From Siphonodentalium dalli (taxonomy: Eukaryota; Mollusca; Scaphopoda; Gadilida; Siphonodentaliidae): a stretch of 64,000 nucleotides of DNA. Shown piece after piece: positions 3,389-34,756 of the stretch. Numbering within the stretch: the first letter of the stretch is position 1; each line of letters opens with the position of its first letter. The stretch lies in NCBI GenBank assembly GCA_032622095.1, contig CP136061.1, positions 85,164,324 through 85,228,323 on the forward strand. The letters are read 5' to 3'. The translations under genes were made by a program, and so were the position numbers. Below the pieces are notes generated by a model. That model was not told where the DNA came from, did not search any database, and saw only the letters and a list, made by a program, of their open reading frames with translations.

Positions 3389-4223
3389 AATGATGTCTCC
3401 TTCCGGAATACAAACATAATTGCTTTCCTTCCTGTGTAGGTTTACCGAAAAGAAGCGGGGGGGCTGGGTTACTACGATTCTGGATATGGCTCTAATTGGG
3501 ACACAAAATTACAAATCATGGGTGCTCCGGTTTGCATTCTCTAGAGTAAGGCAAGAAGCTTATCGTCACTCTGACGCTGTTTAATCATGGTTTCACTATC
3601 TACAAATATATTTGAAGATACTTTGGTTTGAACAACCTTTCCCCTTCTTGATTCAATTATGAGAATGATTCCAGCCTGACAGGTATTTAGAATCGTGGTG
3701 ACTTGACCCCTCCAGGTACATGTATCTGGCCCACTGGCAATAACTGGCGACCGTGGCCTGGATGACGTTCCCCAATGAATAACGATATAATAGCAGTGGT
3801 ATTCCAAGACGAAGAAGGTGGGGGGAGACATTATTTATGGCAAGTAACCATATCAAATGTGAGCTTGGTACAAGAACAGGCTGTACATCCAATAGAGCAT
3901 GCATTGTTCATAAAGGGCATGGTAGGTGTTTTGAAGGTATTCATGGACTAGCTGGAGTCTCAATGAATTTTAAAATATATACGTGTCCCGACCTTTCATA
4001 CCGTTGATATGGCGAATATACTTCACACACGAATGAAGCATATTTACATGGAAAGCATTTATATTGCCACGTGTCCCACGACCACTGCCAATAGCCTTTC
4101 CGACAAGAGGCCATCAGCATGGCTCTTCATACTTCTATTGCCCATATCAATTTGATTATCTGGCACATAGACAATAAAACAGGCAAAGACGTTTGCGCTG
4201 TCCAGCTAAGCTTTCGAGGAAGC

Positions 4224-4592
4224 TCATTGACCAGCATTACCGACCTTTCCTAAGACGCAGGCAGGGGACCACCCCGTTCGAGTGGCATCCTGCACATATG
4301 AAAGTTCCCGCTTAACACTGGCACGCAAGTCACGGTACCCACCGGCTGTGATGTCGTTAGAGCCAAGCTGGATGATGATGTGGGTAGGATGCCGAGACTG
4401 CGGACAAGCGGCGAGCTCCCGGTCGAACTTGGCGTGGAAATCGCCCCAGAGCATCCCACGAGTGCCGATCCATCGAACAGAAGCGCCGCGGCTGGACAGC
4501 TGGAGATGTTGGCCAACAGGACGCCGCACAGCACGCTGGTGAGCCCAGTAGACGTGGGACGAACCCAAGACCCAGATAATGGCTACTGAAAC
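4224..4592 (-). pseudogene. SGNH-hydrolase domain remnant of the Ngaro element
   Basis: Directly after the recombinase, in another frame, is a stretch beginning VSVAIIWVLGSSHVYWA (GxSH-type block I). Next come WIGTRGMLWGDF (block II Gly region) and IIIQLGSND (block III Gly-x-Asn-Asp). Known Ngaro-group elements often carry an SGNH hydrolase of unknown role here. No DxxH block V is readable downstream and the frame closes at 4224, so the copy is probably incomplete. Without an alignment the end of similarity is approximate. Confidence 0.7.
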
Positions 4593-4596
4593 GAGA

Positions 4597-5500
4597 CTAA
4601 GCAGATGTTGAGTGGATGTATTGACGACAAACATCAGACCGCCAACGACCCCGGTGTTGGATGGCATGGTAAGGGGTGCCCAGATCCGCCAGATAGGTAG
4701 CACCACCCGAACGAAATGAATGTGGCGTGATATATTGTCGAGAGCCGGACGTACGCAAAGCCTGACGGAGCACGGCCCGAAACTGCGCGACTGTGAGCGG
4801 GGTCTGAGTCTGGTGAGAAAGGAACAGTCCCGACCGGGAGCCGCGAATGGCAAGAAATGTGGTGGCCGCGCGCAGCGGGCAGATATGTGGATCAGTCGGC
4901 AGGCACGGAATGCGAGTATGAGCGGGAGGACCACATTGGTTCGTTTTAGAATGCCGGAGCCAAACGTCAATGGCGGAGCCACTCAACGAGACATCGCGAA
5001 GAAATATAGCATGTCCAAAGTCTGCCTTGGACACAGCGGCCAGGTCCCCCACGCGGAACAGTCCAAAAAAGGCCATCGTAAAGGCAGACGTAAACAAAGC
5101 GACCTCATGGAGCGACGAGCAGATGCGAGGAAGCACGCGGAGCAAGGTGCGCAGCAAAGGTATTGTCACGAGAGGATGAAGGCGTCAAGCGACGGACCCC
5201 GGTCAATAGTTGGCGAATGAGGTAAGTCGAAGTGGGATCTCGCATACCCCGGAGTCGATGCTGCCGACCGATGGCAGCCAGGTAGGTGGAAATGGTTGAA
5301 GCAGAATGCTGGGAGCGATGAAGCCCCGCGATAAACCCGACGATAGCGTGTTCCGGGAGCGGCCAGGAAACGGCCAAGCGATGCTGGTGTGCGAAATCGA
5401 GATAAGCCCGTATGGCGGTGCGATACGTGCGGTGAGTTTTTGGCGCCCGGGAGGAAGTCAAAAGCAGCGTTACATGTCGACGCAGGTCCACAGGCACCTG
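4597..5500 (-). pseudogene. Tyrosine recombinase of the Ngaro element, split by a frameshift
   Basis: The N-terminal part (5497 to about 5170) has the SAM-like core-binding motif KTHRTYRTAIRAYLDF and STISTYLAAI. The catalytic part is in another frame (5169-4597). It shows the complete set: Arg39 in FRVGDL, Lys75 in HSKT, His150 and Arg153 in HSFR, Trp176 in GRW and the nucleophile Tyr184 in CRQYI (numbering in the 190-codon frame). Such enzymes insert the circular DNA copy without making a target duplication. The one-frame change near 5165-5175 breaks the protein between the two domains. Confidence 0.82.
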
Positions 5501-28084: not shown

Positions 28085-29225
28085 TTTATACCCCCTTTTA
28101 AAAAAAAAAGGGGGGTATACTGTTTTGCACCTGTCCGTGCGTCCGTCCGTGCGTCCGTCCGTGTGTCCGTGCGTGCGTCCGTGAGTCTGTACGTCCGTCC
28201 GATGTCTGTTCGTGTCATAACTTGAACAGTAGTGCTCGGATCTCAATGAAATTAGGTATGGATGTTCACTATTATGAGGACATTTAATAGAGGGTTCCAT
28301 CGTTTTGTTTGGATTTTCCATTCTAGAGTTATTCATCTTTGTTTATCTGGAAATAGTGGCTTTTTGGTACGTCTGGTGTCTGTTCATGTCGTAACTTCAA
28401 CAGTTGTGCTGGGATCTCAACCAAATTTGGTGTGGATGTTCACAACTATGAGGACATTAAATAGAGGGTTCCATCGTTTTGTTCCGATTTTCCATTCTAG
28501 AGTTATTCATCTTTGTTTATCTTGACATGTTGGAGTTTTGGTCCATCTGGTGTCTGTTCATGTCATAACCTTTGTTCATCTGGAAATGTTGGCTTTTTGG
28601 TTCGTCTGGTGTCTGTTCATATTGTAACTTCGACAGTTGTACTGGGATCTCAATGGGATTTGGTATGGATGTTCACTACTATGAGGACATTAAAAAGAGG
28701 GTTCCATCGTTTTGTTCCGCTTTTCCATTCTAGAGTTACTCATCTTTGTTCATCTGGAAATAAATGTTGGCTTTTTGGTCCGTCTGGTGTCTTCATGTCG
28801 TAACTTCAACAGTTGTGCTGGGATCTCAATGGAATTTGGTATAGATGTTCACTGCTATGAGGACATTCAATAGGGGGTTCCATTGTTCTGTTCTGCTTTT
28901 CCATTCTAGAGTAATTCATCTTTGTTTATCTGGAAATGTTGGTTGTTTGATCCATCCGATGTCTGTTCAGCTCATAACTTGAACAGTAATGCTTGGATCT
29001 CAATGAAATTTTGTATGGATGTTCACCACTATGAGGACAGTTAATGGCACATTCAAATGTTTGTTTTGGTTTTTTGTTCTATAGTTATTCATCTTTGTTT
29101 ATATGAAAATGCTGATTTCTGGGTCCATATGTCTGAGTATAGCCATCATAAGTTATAGATGTGCCCACACTAGGCGGTATGCCATGAGGGGGTATGCACC
29201 GGACGACAGTCCATCTCTTGTTGTT
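28085..29225. repeat. Full-length interspersed repeat of the 'ggggtatactg' family
   Basis: It starts with a palindromic 'ttataccccctttt...ggggggtatactg', then a cgtccg tract, then several diverged units of about 190 bases. Each unit has 'gggatctcaa', 'gatgttcac', 'tatgaggacat' and 'attctagagttattcatct'. It ends near 'cgacagtccatctcttgtt'. Related copies lie at 1-400, 41815-42445 and in part at 44480-44880. Confidence 0.8.
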
Positions 29226-29449: not shown

Positions 29450-32400
29450 ATAATAGTCTGGCTGTTGAAGGGTTGAACCCGGAAACAATTCTTAACAAGC
29501 TGAATTTGGTGTCATTCGATGCAGCATAACCCCCTGGTGAACATATCCAAAATCCGCTAAAATCCGTTTTGGGGAATTTATTTTATTCAAGATGGCGTCC
29601 AACATGGCCGCTTGAAAGTTGAACATTTCGAGAAGTCTATTGTTTGACGCACAATATAAAACTATCAACCCGTGTTGTAACCAAAAGTCCTTTTGTAGTA
29701 TATACAATATATGTCCAACACAAACGATGCTGTTTCCGGTTAAAAGACCTAAACATGGCGGCCAAAATGTCAGCCAAAACGGGAAAATATGTGTTTTCTT
29801 TATTTTTCCACTAATTTTCCACATTATGAATGTATTGACTTTGAATCCCCGACCAAAACGAAAGATATATTTATTGAGTATTAAGATTGCTTTCTGGCGA
29901 TAAAGCCACATTCAATCCAGTTCCTTATCAACAACCGTTGAAAAGATTCGTGCAAATCTCCCCACGACAATCCCCACAGGCAGTGACACACTTAATCCCA
30001 TTCTTGCGACATGAACATTGGTTTGTGCCACAAGGAGTTCTTGAAGAAATTTTTCAATTGCATTCCATGAATTAAAGAAGAATTTCGGTGCTGGTTCTAG
30101 GTCAGTCATTATAGCGATAATTATTGACCCCTGCAGTTTCCATCCCCAATGTTTGCAAAGTTTGGGTTCTAGATCTATTTTCCCGAGATATGCCCAGATT
30201 AAAACATGTAAGTGAACCCTAAGACTAAGGCTGCCCTCTCTGTGTGTGTCAGTTTCTGAGGTTCGATAGCAGACCTGCCGGAGGAAACACGGTAATGAAC
30301 TTCGCGTATCTTAGATGATCGAGGGACTCTCCATCCTTGCCCGAGTACATTTGAATGAAAATCTTCGAACTGCCTTGCCTAACTGTTGGGCTGACGCAGC
30401 CCGATTGCTGATTTCTAAGGAAAGATGTTGCAGATGAGCAGACGATTCTAATCGTTTCATCATAAACCCAATTGCTGGCCTCTTCCTCGTAGAAGTCCAT
30501 CCCGACTTTTGATGGAACGCATCATGATTTGCTCAATAACTAGGTCACTTGACAGTCATGCCCAAACCTACTGCTCCTTCGAATAGTATGAACACCATCC
30601 TCTATCAAAGACTTGTATAACCACGGATATTTCTTCTTGGGTAAGTCAAGCATCATTTGCAAAAACAAGCGGCAAACAAATTCAACATTTTCCCAACAAC
30701 TACTAAATGGAGATTCCAATCTCCTGTTCTCTCAGCTCGAATAAAATCTGTCAACATTTCTAGACTCTCCATATACTGTAACCAACGTTTGGATGTTCTG
30801 GATTTCTCGCCAATGTATGTCTTGTAATATAACATAAGTTCGTTCAATTTGAGCAGTTCTATTGAATCGGAAGCAGCCGGAACTGGGATGGACCCATCAA
30901 ACACGTTTACATACAGCTCAATTATTGCTTTCACTTCAATCTGACTAAGCTTCGCCCCTTCGAAACTGTCAGTACCAATTGCAGCGATTCCCTCGATTGC
31001 CAATTCTTCGTTAGTTGATGTCGAAGGTACTTCGATATTTAACGTTGAAGGTACTTCGACATTTGATTTTGCAGATAATTCGGTATCTGATGTCGCGTTT
31101 GATGCCTCGTCATCGGCTGTCGTCTTGGAGATTTCATTTGAATCCTCAGAGATCAATTCATCCAACAGTAAGGGCTCTGTCTACAAGGAAATGACATATG
31201 AGTGCTCGCGAGAATGCCTTCCCGGAAAGCATTGTGGCAACTGTGTTTGAGCCATAAGCGTTTTCAAGAGCCTCATCTAACCCCGACCCATTCATCATGG
31301 TACCAATGCTACCCATGAACTCATCATCAGATGGAAGCCGCCGAGTCTACAAACTATTCCAAGTGACTTGGCTTAAATGATCTCAACCTGTTTGAACCAA
31401 AGTGACTGGTCAAACGCCAAGCATGGAGACAGGGTTTTCCCAACTGTGTCGCGTGATTCTGAATACACATCAAAGTGGAAAACAAACAAGACTCACCTGA
31501 TGGGTTGAGGTCTATTATCGGTAGAAAAAGATCTTCTGACTAGGCTGAATGTTCTGAGCTGTTTGAAGAAAATATGTGTTCCATTAATCCAGACCAGTTC
31601 GGTCTGTTTCATTGCTCGATTTGAAAGCCAACCGCAATGCCAATCAGTGCTCAAACCTGTGTATGGGTCGGTACTCTATAGTGGATAATCCCAGCTTTTT
31701 TGTAGGTTTCTAATGGTGTATGATGGGCACATCCTTGTCTTCGATTAGTTCTTCAACCATAACACGTTTTTGATGAGTGATGACTTTGATATAGGTGCAA
31801 CCAGTGTGTCGTCCTTCTGAAACTGCGAGTATCCCCATAACATGGAATGAACCTTTACCATCAATAGTAGCGACGTTTAGGTCGACTCTATCTGCTGTCG
31901 ACTGAGTAAATGTACCTGGAAAATACTCCATGTGTGTACTCTCAGGATTTTCCACCTGGATCACTGATTGCTCGTACCTGCTTACTTCGTCGTAAGTAAT
32001 TGAAAACCCCAATTTAGAGAGTTCACCAGCAAGCCACCTTGACCTGAAACGCGATCCATTTCAACCCAAATACCAAAAATAGTAGAGGTAATAACAGATT
32101 GTACGATACTGTGACCATTGCTATTCTGTTTTATTTCAGATGGAACTAGTATCTCCAGATACATTTCTAAATGGCGAGAAATCCATTTATTTATGTTGTA
32201 AATATTCCCAATCTCCTCGCTGGTGGTGTAGGTTTTCTTATCATATGTCATTTTCCGTAACTTTGCCCTAATCATCTTCGTGGCGGTCACAACAACTCTG
32301 CCTGCCTCCTCATCTATGTCATCTTTCTTATCCGCATACCGCTTGTCATTTGTCGAGTACGTGGCCATATCTTTGAAGCAAATGTCGTTGCTATGCCTTT

Positions 32401-33955
32401 CGATTTCAGCGAAAAAGATATACTCCCCATACCGTTCTTCCAATTTCTGTTTAAGGCGTTTTATTGAATTAAGATTCTGACCAAATTGCTAGTTCTATCA
32501 TTTGAGTATGTAACTCGGACAGAGTATACAGTTCTGCACCATCCCCAGACTCCAGCCCGGATACACACAGCGAATCAAATGAGCGTTGCATTTCGAGTAT
32601 TTTCAACACTTGGTATACATGATATACGGCTTCTGCAGCAACGAAATCAAGGCAACTTAGAATGAGTTTCTTAACCTTCAATGCTCACAAATCTTCTCTG
32701 GTATTTAATAGGGAGAGTTGCTACTGTTCGCATTTGCCTCATACAGGGATGACGGGGATCTGATATGACACCCTTTCCAGATATGGAACAGTCTTCTTTG
32801 AAATTAACTGGCTCTTGTTTAGACATCATTTTCTTAGAGAGCGGAACCGTATATCCATACACTCAGGATTGACACTGAAGGTTCTTTTCCTATCAGTGAA
32901 ATCACACCTACAATTGTTATGGACCAAGACCTTACCAATGGGTGTGGTTATTGTTGCCCCTTTAAATATTCAGATAAGTGGTTACATCCTCGCTTATCAG
33001 AGAAGTCAATCAAAGTCTCCAATCCTTTTGCCATAACTTGTACCAATGGATTTCCCTTAGTGTCCACATTAAATTGATACATGCTATGAAAGGACGAGAC
33101 TCGCAAGTCCTCTTGAAAGTTGCTGACCCCAACATATGGGTTTGGTTCTGCCATTGCCGAACACGCACCATACCAAACGAGAGAGTATGATAATAAAACC
33201 CCCAAAACATTGCAGTTTGAATATGCAATAAGCCTTCCGCGTATGTTGGCGCCGTTAGGTTTCAACAGAAGACGAAAAATAAACACAATGTCACACAAAA
33301 CACATATCAAAACAACTATATCAAGACATGATGGCCACCACACACTTGAAGAAACAATCGCTACGTTATATTTGATAGTTATATTACATAAATCATTGAA
33401 TTGATAGTCTAATTGGACCATTAAAGGGCATTAAGCACGAGTCATTTAAAATAAAGAGCATTAATTTATATGTAGACCCATCACTTCATCTTTTCATAGT
33501 ATATCGCTACGCTCAAGTAAGAATGAAAAATTCGAGACTAACTATATATTTAGTTTAATGAAAGCAATTAGAGAGCGTTTAATTAAACGGACTTTCATCA
33601 TGATATAAGAAATACGCTTTCCATTGCCCATATGTATGTAAATATATTATCTGATGACCTTGCAATTATATGATCGTTCATTATATTTAAATATATGTAC
33701 TGAAAACAACTTTTATCTAGACCACTTGGCGCTCATACGGAGTCCCGTAGTCACAAATACCTTCATAAATTACGTCAGACCCCTCCCCTATTCAGGGCGC
33801 TGTAGAAAAATTTCCCCAAAGCGGATTTTAGCGGATTTTGGATATGTTATATACGAATGTCTCCTCTTTCGAACGATACCAAATTTAGCTTGTTAAGAAT
33901 TTTTTCCGGGTAGGTCCTATAATTCAGCTCCGACAGCCAGACTATAACTTCAAAA
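29450..33955. mobile_element. TIR element with a broken transposase-like gene, about 4.5 kb
   Basis: Imperfect TIRs of about 130 bases face each other (29450-29580 and 33815-33955). Shared blocks include 'tagtctggctgt', 'aattcttaacaagct' and 'atatccaaaatccgctaaaa'. Between them the minus strand carries a single long but frameshifted protein gene. The target duplication is not resolved (bases at the ends are 'taatagtc' and 'ttatagtc'). The element lies in the intron between exons 6 and 7. I do not recognise its superfamily. Confidence 0.8.
29930..33154 (-). pseudogene. Uncharacterised transposase-like protein, about 1000 residues, with multiple frameshifts
   Basis: Read from 33154 downwards, successive frames give the parts of one protein. 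First is a start at MAEPNPYVGV, then a Cys segment VHNNCRCDFTDRKR (about 32890) and a Cys-poor linker. Next is LSCLDFVAAEAVYHVYQV (about 32650), a helical part (32443-31982) and GFSITYDEVSRYEQS followed by RVDLNVATIDGKGSFHVMG (31990-31850). Then come FLPIIDLNPS, KSLGIVCRLGGFHLMM (about 31380), RAERTGDWNLHL (about 30720), IEQIMMRSIKSRDGLLRGRG (about 30510) and a Cys-rich tail CSCRKNGIKCVTACGDC (about 30000). From memory this layout belongs to a large unnamed family, multi-copy in many metazoans. Frameshifts and stops break it at least six times. Confidence 0.72.
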
Positions 33956-34282: not shown

Positions 34283-34549
34283 TTATTCAGTTCTATTCTA
34301 AATGGATTCTTTCTTTCGGTTATCAAAATATAAATTGGAACAGTCTATTATTCATTTGAGGGGTGTTCAGGTAGTAAAAGCAGATGACAGGCAGAAAGAT
34401 AATACCATAGCAGAATGATTCATAGCCATTGGTTGGAAATTTTCAGATAATAAGTTTAACAAACGATCTATGATAGTTTGTTGAACTTATTATCTGAACA
34501 TTTCCTATGGGATAAATAATCAATGATGCTTTAGTATAGAAAGGGTTAA
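34283..34549. mobile_element. MITE with TTAA end, copy 2
   Basis: It has the same block order as 20897-21153: 'taaatggattct', 'ggtgttcagg', 'gcagatgacag', then an internal palindrome 'cagataataagttt...aacttattatctga'. It ends 'agaaagggttaa'. The left end is degenerate (ttattcag). Confidence 0.7.
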
Positions 34550-34629: not shown

Positions 34630-34756
34630 ATGTACAGTGAAGTGATATTGGTCTTTATATCATGTTGAGTTGAGACTGCGGCAGCTTGTCAGATCCTGGA
34701 TCTTACCTTCTCAACTCGACACCATATGAAAACCAATAACACTTCACTGTAGTTTT
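34630..34756. repeat. Hairpin repeat
   Basis: 'acagtgaagtgatattggt' is mirrored by 'accaataacacttcactgt' about 100 bases on, with an inner 'gttgagttgag...ctcaactcgac' pair. Confidence 0.7.

Follow-up and report, generated by a model that had tools for sequence, protein, structure and literature searches.

The nuclease of AcademX transposons is of the XPG type, and Kolobok transposons duplicate the target sequence TTAA. Academ lineages encode a helicase and a nuclease (the portion of PMC10045372 that describes them speaks of a nuclease and does not state the XPG type), and the target site duplications (TSDs) given there are 3 or 4 bp long for AcademX and 9 or 10 bp long for AcademH. In surveyed molluscs, Academ is third by number among DDE/D superfamilies and is nearly confined to bivalves, where curated elements average 5565 bp (PMC10294476). 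A transposase is also accompanied by an accessory nuclease in KolobokE, D and P; as described in the relevant portion of PMC9587614, these nucleases are lambda-exonuclease-like, DnaQ-like and of the His-Me finger type, not FEN1/XPG-like.

The stretch of the Siphonodentalium dalli genome analyzed here (64,000 nucleotides of contig CP136061.1, positions 85,164,324 to 85,228,323 of the forward strand, hereafter the window) contains a decayed element bounded by terminal inverted repeats (TIRs). This copy is probably a dead, internally deleted Academ DNA transposon of the AcademX type, as judged from the architecture of its family, the length of the TSD and that of the element.

A broken element with inverted ends

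The window element occupies positions 29454-33944 (4491 bases) and is flanked by TAA on both sides. Its inverted ends are TAGTCTGG/CCAGACTA and its termini read TAGTCTGGCTGT / ACAGCCAGACTA. Two pairs of inverted arms, 29477-29519/33869-33911 (43 nt, 91%) and 29540-29585/33803-33848 (46 nt, 91%), lie no more than about 130-140 bases from the ends, and a single broken gene remnant on the minus strand is enclosed between the TIRs. The features of the element are as follows:

29451..29453, no strand: left copy of the TSD, TAA (flank reading)
29454..29585, plus strand: TIR on the 3' side of the gene, starting with TAGTCTGGCTGT (inverted-repeat and end analysis)
29915..30463, minus strand: C-terminal remnant, L031 aa 1392-1575, including the Cys-rich tail (tblastn of the L031 protein)
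30460..30478, no strand: deletion junction, L031 positions 3665-4911 gone (blastn of the L031 element)
30478..32467, minus strand: transposase-like core remnant, L031 aa 283-977, disrupted by frameshifts and stops (tblastn, residue conservation)
31852..31898, minus strand: motif of the first aspartate, decayed to TADRVDLNVATIDGKG; open-frame relatives have VADNVDHN (alignment)
32472..33184, minus strand: remnant of the N-terminal Cys/His segments, L031 aa 19-281 (tblastn, N-terminal alignment)
33803..33944, minus strand: TIR on the 5' side of the gene (inverted-repeat and end analysis)
33945..33947, no strand: right copy of the TSD, TAA (flank reading)

In tblastn comparison with the protein of L031, an open-frame copy whose element is 5922 bp long, the remnant corresponds to aa 19-977 and 1392-1575, spread over several frames; the six matches together contain 19 internal stops. 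Aligned as DNA by blastn, the two elements share five collinear pieces of 85.7-91.0% identity; the part of L031 from element position 3665 to 4911 (aa about 978-1392), which holds the whole nuclease core, is missing from the window copy. The core remnant spans the regions of residues D480, D653, H679 and E959 of L031. The RVDLN/DGKG stretch at 31852-31898 is the counterpart of VADNVDHN..DGKG in open-frame copies, and VADNVDHN is kept among open-frame relatives, apart from small variants and from L038, which has N in place of the first D.

The arms, the TAA flanks and the 19 internal stops bear out the first-pass annotation in its description of a TIR-bounded element with a broken minus-strand gene; the limits that it had drawn, 29450-33955, were off by a few bases at the left end and by 11 at the right. 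The internal deletion that removed the nuclease region had been missed.

Copies in the S. dalli genome

A search of the species' own assembly with the central fragment of the protein yielded at least 150 matches, that is, 150 matches from the 150 places scored out of 858 first-look places, so that these counts are lower bounds. Together with the fixed geometry of ends and gene described below, this number makes the observation more than a matter of chance. The closest copies are decayed like the one in the window (L003 is 97.4% identical to it over 3356 aligned bases). In seven of the 12 fetched stretches (L031-L037), a single stop-to-stop frame of 1494-1579 codons is present; since the frames of L036 and L037 stop before the Cys-rich tail, the whole protein is encoded by five of these seven copies. 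Three further copies (L016, L017 and L018) are 99.6% identical over 3342 bases to L011, the place of L031, which suggests that the element moved recently.

In the three pairs compared between families, pN is 0.26-0.28 although synonymous differences have reached saturation (pS 0.81-0.85), which points to long-run selection on the protein. Within families, dN/dS ranged from 0.28 to 0.79 in five pairs, with no strong constraint. Viral contigs were also scanned; there were two pattern matches, and no relative was found.

Ends, target site duplications and empty sites

The inverted ends of the family begin with TAGT. Both ends were found around the gene in nine of the 12 stretches (L031, L033-L037, L039, L041 and L042), and one end was not found in L032, L038 and L040. 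Six of the seven open-frame copies have both ends, and L032 is without the right one.

An exact 3-bp duplication was read in 15 of the 19 copies with both ends, a count from which L032, L038 and L040 were left out. When left flanks were compared with the right flanks of other copies as a control, three bases agreed in 19 of 342 cases. Flanks did not match in L033, L039 and L042, and those of the copy at C1:137.0M match over 2 or 4 bases. A later reading outside this count, that of L082, revealed TTA on both sides. The duplicated triplets are varied (TAG, CAA, TTG, ATA, CAT, ATT, GTG, CTA and others). The first-pass annotation had suggested a check of whether each gene sits between the same TIRs with a constant duplication; this is so in most of the copies read. 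An initial reading, with a TA duplication and ends GTCTGG, was abandoned: none of the 40 main end matches starts beyond query position 16, and this, with the flank comparison, placed TA within the end and set the TSD at 3 bp.

Empty sites were sought by joining the flanks of a copy with one set of the three bases and searching the genome with the joined sequence. All 40 scored places cross a junction at 99-100% identity, 29 of them for the copy at C2:207.9M and 11 for the copy at C6:233.5M; 26 additional rows are short partial matches. The remaining joined junctions do not appear among the 40 scored places and are uninformative either way. The empty sites are precise and lie within two repeat families.

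The position of the gene relative to the ends was counted using 101 of the 150 scored gene places. A same-strand gene match was located on the inner side, within 8 kb, at 26 of 40 left ends and 35 of 40 right ends (61/80), and on the outer side, on either strand, at one of 40 left ends and none of 40 right ends (1/80). No gene match adjoined 14 of the 40 left and five of the 40 right ends; in these 19 cases, the gene may be absent, or its place may have been unscored or unused.

Common repeats do form inverted pairs, and the ends could in principle have been an unrelated interspersed repeat lying in two orientations around the remnant of a host gene. The inner-side location of the gene argues against such a chance pair, as do the open-frame relatives with the same ends and 3-bp duplication and the precise uninterrupted sites. 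This explanation, whose probability we consider negligible, is refuted by the ends, the TSD, the geometry and the empty sites, and the locus is treated below as a transposon.

The encoded protein

The L031 protein (1575 codons, stop to stop) is made up, in this order, of two N-terminal Cys/His segments, a central part, the nuclease region and a Cys-rich tail. Each of nine Cys positions of the tail is kept in all rows with a letter at that position (14-16 rows). In the core, among the rows that have a letter at the respective position, D480 is present in 14 of 15, D653 in 15 of 15 and E959 in 13 of 13, and all three are found in L079, a paralogue of 22% identity; H679 is conserved as well. By conservation, D480, D653 and E959 are the candidate catalytic residues of a putative D-D-E core. 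E882 (in RAERTGDW) was considered as the third catalytic residue and rejected: since L079 has no acid at that position and keeps E959, the latter appears preferable on the basis of the alignment.

A comparison with the RNase H fold, which is expected of an Academ DDD/E transposase and had been suggested as a check in the first-pass annotation, relied on a model of aa 376-1000 of low confidence (mean pLDDT 39.6), too poor to show such a fold. A Foldseek search with this model returned no match at E ≤ 0.001 and nothing below E 0.83. Structural alignment of this poor core model to Hermes (Z 4.4, rmsd 6.3, 195 residues aligned) and to HIV integrase (Z 4.1, rmsd 3.2, 79 aligned) gave weak matches that sit among unrelated folds, some of them with higher Z.

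The model of aa 1000-1575 has a mean pLDDT of 48.8, with 16 of the 21 ten-residue blocks between model positions 161 and 370 at 60 or more. Its best PDB matches in Foldseek were plastid exonuclease 1, T5 5' nuclease, EXO1, Rad2, ExoIX, XPG and FEN1, two matches being at E ≤ 0.001. In a second alignment (VIA), the best match was GEN1 (Z 11.4, rmsd 3.7, 187 residues aligned); the 50 rows shown have Z 9.9-11.4 with 157-216 residues aligned, and GEN1, FEN1 and XPG are at the top. L031 aa about 1158-1388 are thus predicted to adopt the FEN1/XPG/EXO1 5'-nuclease fold, in the same open frame as the core. Seven acids of this region (D1185, D1224, D1294, D1296, D1318, D1320 and D1379) are conserved in 16-18 of the 17-18 rows with a letter and presumably correspond to the active site of FEN1. 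An acid of L079 aligns at six of these positions, the counterpart of D1185 being unclear. The resemblance to FEN1, XPG, EXO1 and GEN1 lies in the predicted fold and the conserved acids; unlike these 5' nucleases, the predicted nuclease of L031 is embedded in a transposase.

At the sequence level, no match to the nuclease region was found in PDB or Pfam. The Pfam family LacAB_rpiB was reported for nine of the 22 rows of alignment A2 (best E 3.1e-5), over about 66 residues inside the nuclease region; its printed scores of 14.6-19.3 bits are below the cut-off of 24.7 bits, though the best row may come near it. This candidate was set aside because it conflicts with the fold result.

Placement among transposon superfamilies

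Harbinger, EnSpm/CACTA and Zator elements produce 3-bp duplications, and the target of PIF/Harbinger is TWA. The TSD length would fit each of these superfamilies, and the TAA of the window would suit Harbinger. However, the targets of the family, listed above, are not limited to TWA, and no Pfam transposase family was found in the full frames or, among the families listed at E ≤ 1, for the 28 rows of alignment A1. None of the three is known to carry an XPG-type nuclease. Membership in any of these superfamilies is very improbable.

The first-pass annotation had read the gene as the transposase of a superfamily that matches none of the standard ones. The first half of this reading stands: the gene is part of a TIR transposon, whose transposase it very probably encodes, as indicated by the stretches with both ends (9/12), the exact 3-bp duplications (15/19) and the two precise empty sites. 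The second half is not supported, AcademX being the better fit. An unnamed superfamily would combine an Academ-like TSD and nuclease with a transposase that is not homologous to that of Academ. In its favor, no Pfam family scored above the cut-off for the window fragments or for the full frames L031, L036 and L037, PDB sequence searches gave no credible match, and no paper in the collection searched contains the string ADNVDHN; moreover, the likeness to Academ is known by description and not by sequence. On the other hand, a transposase and a nuclease together with a TSD of 3-4 bp are what is published for AcademX (PMC10045372), so that an unnamed superfamily is not needed, and Academ is abundant in bivalves, with a mean length to which the 5922 bp of L031 are close (PMC10294476). 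We regard the unnamed superfamily as unlikely.

AcademX, then, is the placement we prefer: a probable transposase and a predicted nuclease are found in one element with TIRs, and the 3-bp TSD observed here is within the reported 3 or 4 bp (PMC10045372), the difference being that the window copy is without the nuclease. In the collection of papers searched, none was listed for Academ with XPG or for transposase with XPG. The KolobokE, D and P elements resemble the family in pairing a transposase with an accessory nuclease and differ from it in the TSD, which here is 3 bp of varied sequence, not TTAA.

A distant paralogue and DUF6589

L079 is located on the same chromosome, about 500 kb from the window, and has an open frame of 1541 codons. 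In a one-sequence comparison, it is 22% identical to L036 over 1557 columns (E 1e-40), and the order of its parts is that of the window's family. L079 is without the first bases of the left end; the near-identical L080 has the ends TAGTAGAGGCTC, with inverted repeats about 450 bases long (68%), and is flanked by TAT on both sides, as read by eye. This single case suggests that the 3-bp duplication and the TAGT ends hold across a deep split.

Both L079 and L080 score above the cut-off for Pfam DUF6589 (PF20231), a family of unknown function (29.4 bits, cut-off 27), in the part with the E motif. The window's own family, in contrast, stays below that cut-off: DUF6589 was not listed for L031, L036 or L037, and the best E, 0.076, was obtained for one of 28 rows. 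When three DUF6589 proteins were compared by profile with alignment A1 or A4, the result did not reach significance (E 0.14-0.2), and in a multiple alignment with the same number of DUF6589 proteins the E motif was not clearly aligned. In the collection of papers searched, DUF6589 yielded nothing relevant, only an unrelated match from optics.

Copies without the nuclease

A 171-base query spanning the deletion junction of the window copy matched in one piece at 33 of 40 scored places, a count that includes the window copy. The match was within 4 bases of the query length in 24 of the 33 and 7-17 bases longer in nine, which may have a slightly different junction; at the remaining seven places, one side only was matched. 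L082 and L083, two copies with one in-frame TAG, have lost L031 positions 3776-5059, nuclease included, by a deletion that differs from that of the window. The distance from the gene to the right end was 2.3-2.6 kb in 21 of 35 cases and 3.9 kb in eight, a pattern that would follow if such deletions were present in many copies, the named copies being those that were read. Given the broken frames of the window copy and of L082 and L083, movement in trans is the plain reading.

The nuclease might be required only by autonomous copies, or might be able to act in trans: at least two groups of copies have multiplied despite losing it, each through a different deletion. We put this forward as a tentative and rather doubtful reading.

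Discussion

By the mechanism that we propose, the element protein would bind the inverted ends, and a centre formed by D480, D653 and E959 would excise the element and join it to a target cleaved at positions 3 bp apart; filling of the gaps by host repair would then generate the 3-bp duplication. At donor or target ends, the predicted flap/XPG-type nuclease may trim or otherwise process 5' branched strands. Intact copies probably moved the window copy and its deletion sisters in trans, by acting on the inverted ends that these have kept.

The surprise is limited, since the superfamily has already been described. Nevertheless, large unannotated proteins become, through this analysis, a probable named mobile element with defined ends, a TSD and candidate catalytic residues, and the near-identical open-frame copies within one genome are material for tests. 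The scores of the distant paralogue link DUF6589 to an architecture of transposase plus nuclease. If the nuclease is dispensable in cis, the element can be moved by the transposase core on its own, or by a core and a nuclease that come from separate molecules; those DUF6589 proteins that lack a nuclease would then be relatives of this transposase, either free-standing or domesticated.

Surroundings and derivative copies of the element

The element in the window is decayed, and its flanks carry the following repeats.

Window 28196-29044: repeat array next to the element, with periods of about 174-176 bases and matches of 84-87%
Window 34435-34505: hairpin just beyond the element; its 34 nt arms are 91% paired
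Window 34633-34751: hairpin just beyond the element; its 43 nt arms are 86% paired

The two hairpins are possibly other small inverted-repeat elements. Elsewhere in the assembly, two left ends in the same orientation lie ca. 4 kb apart (C2:159774822 and C2:159778828) and are followed by a single right end, an arrangement that would fit the insertion of one copy into another.

A nuclease deletion that differs from that of the window copy is common to two other copies that were read, L082 and L083. Further places with one in-frame TAG were grouped with them as the same derivative, L082 and L083 being the only members read.

Related proteins in the same genome

The final ~45 residues of the open frame of L031, the relative to which the window copy was aligned, form a Cys-rich tail, whose Cys spacing we take to be reminiscent of the CXC (tesmin) pattern.

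A second lineage has the architecture of the window copy's family, to which it is 22% identical. Its members are located as follows.

L079: C1:85.73M
L080: C9:173.87M
L081: C2:144.99M

The termini of L080 are TAGTAGAGGCTC, and a 3 bp duplication is present at this locus. Both L079 and L080 matched DUF6589, a Pfam family (PF20231) of unknown function, above the cut-off. The same genome also encodes DUF6589 proteins with frames of 616-630 codons (L074, L075 and L076); these contain the motifs GDNINF and GGDQLT, which resemble a D-D pair.
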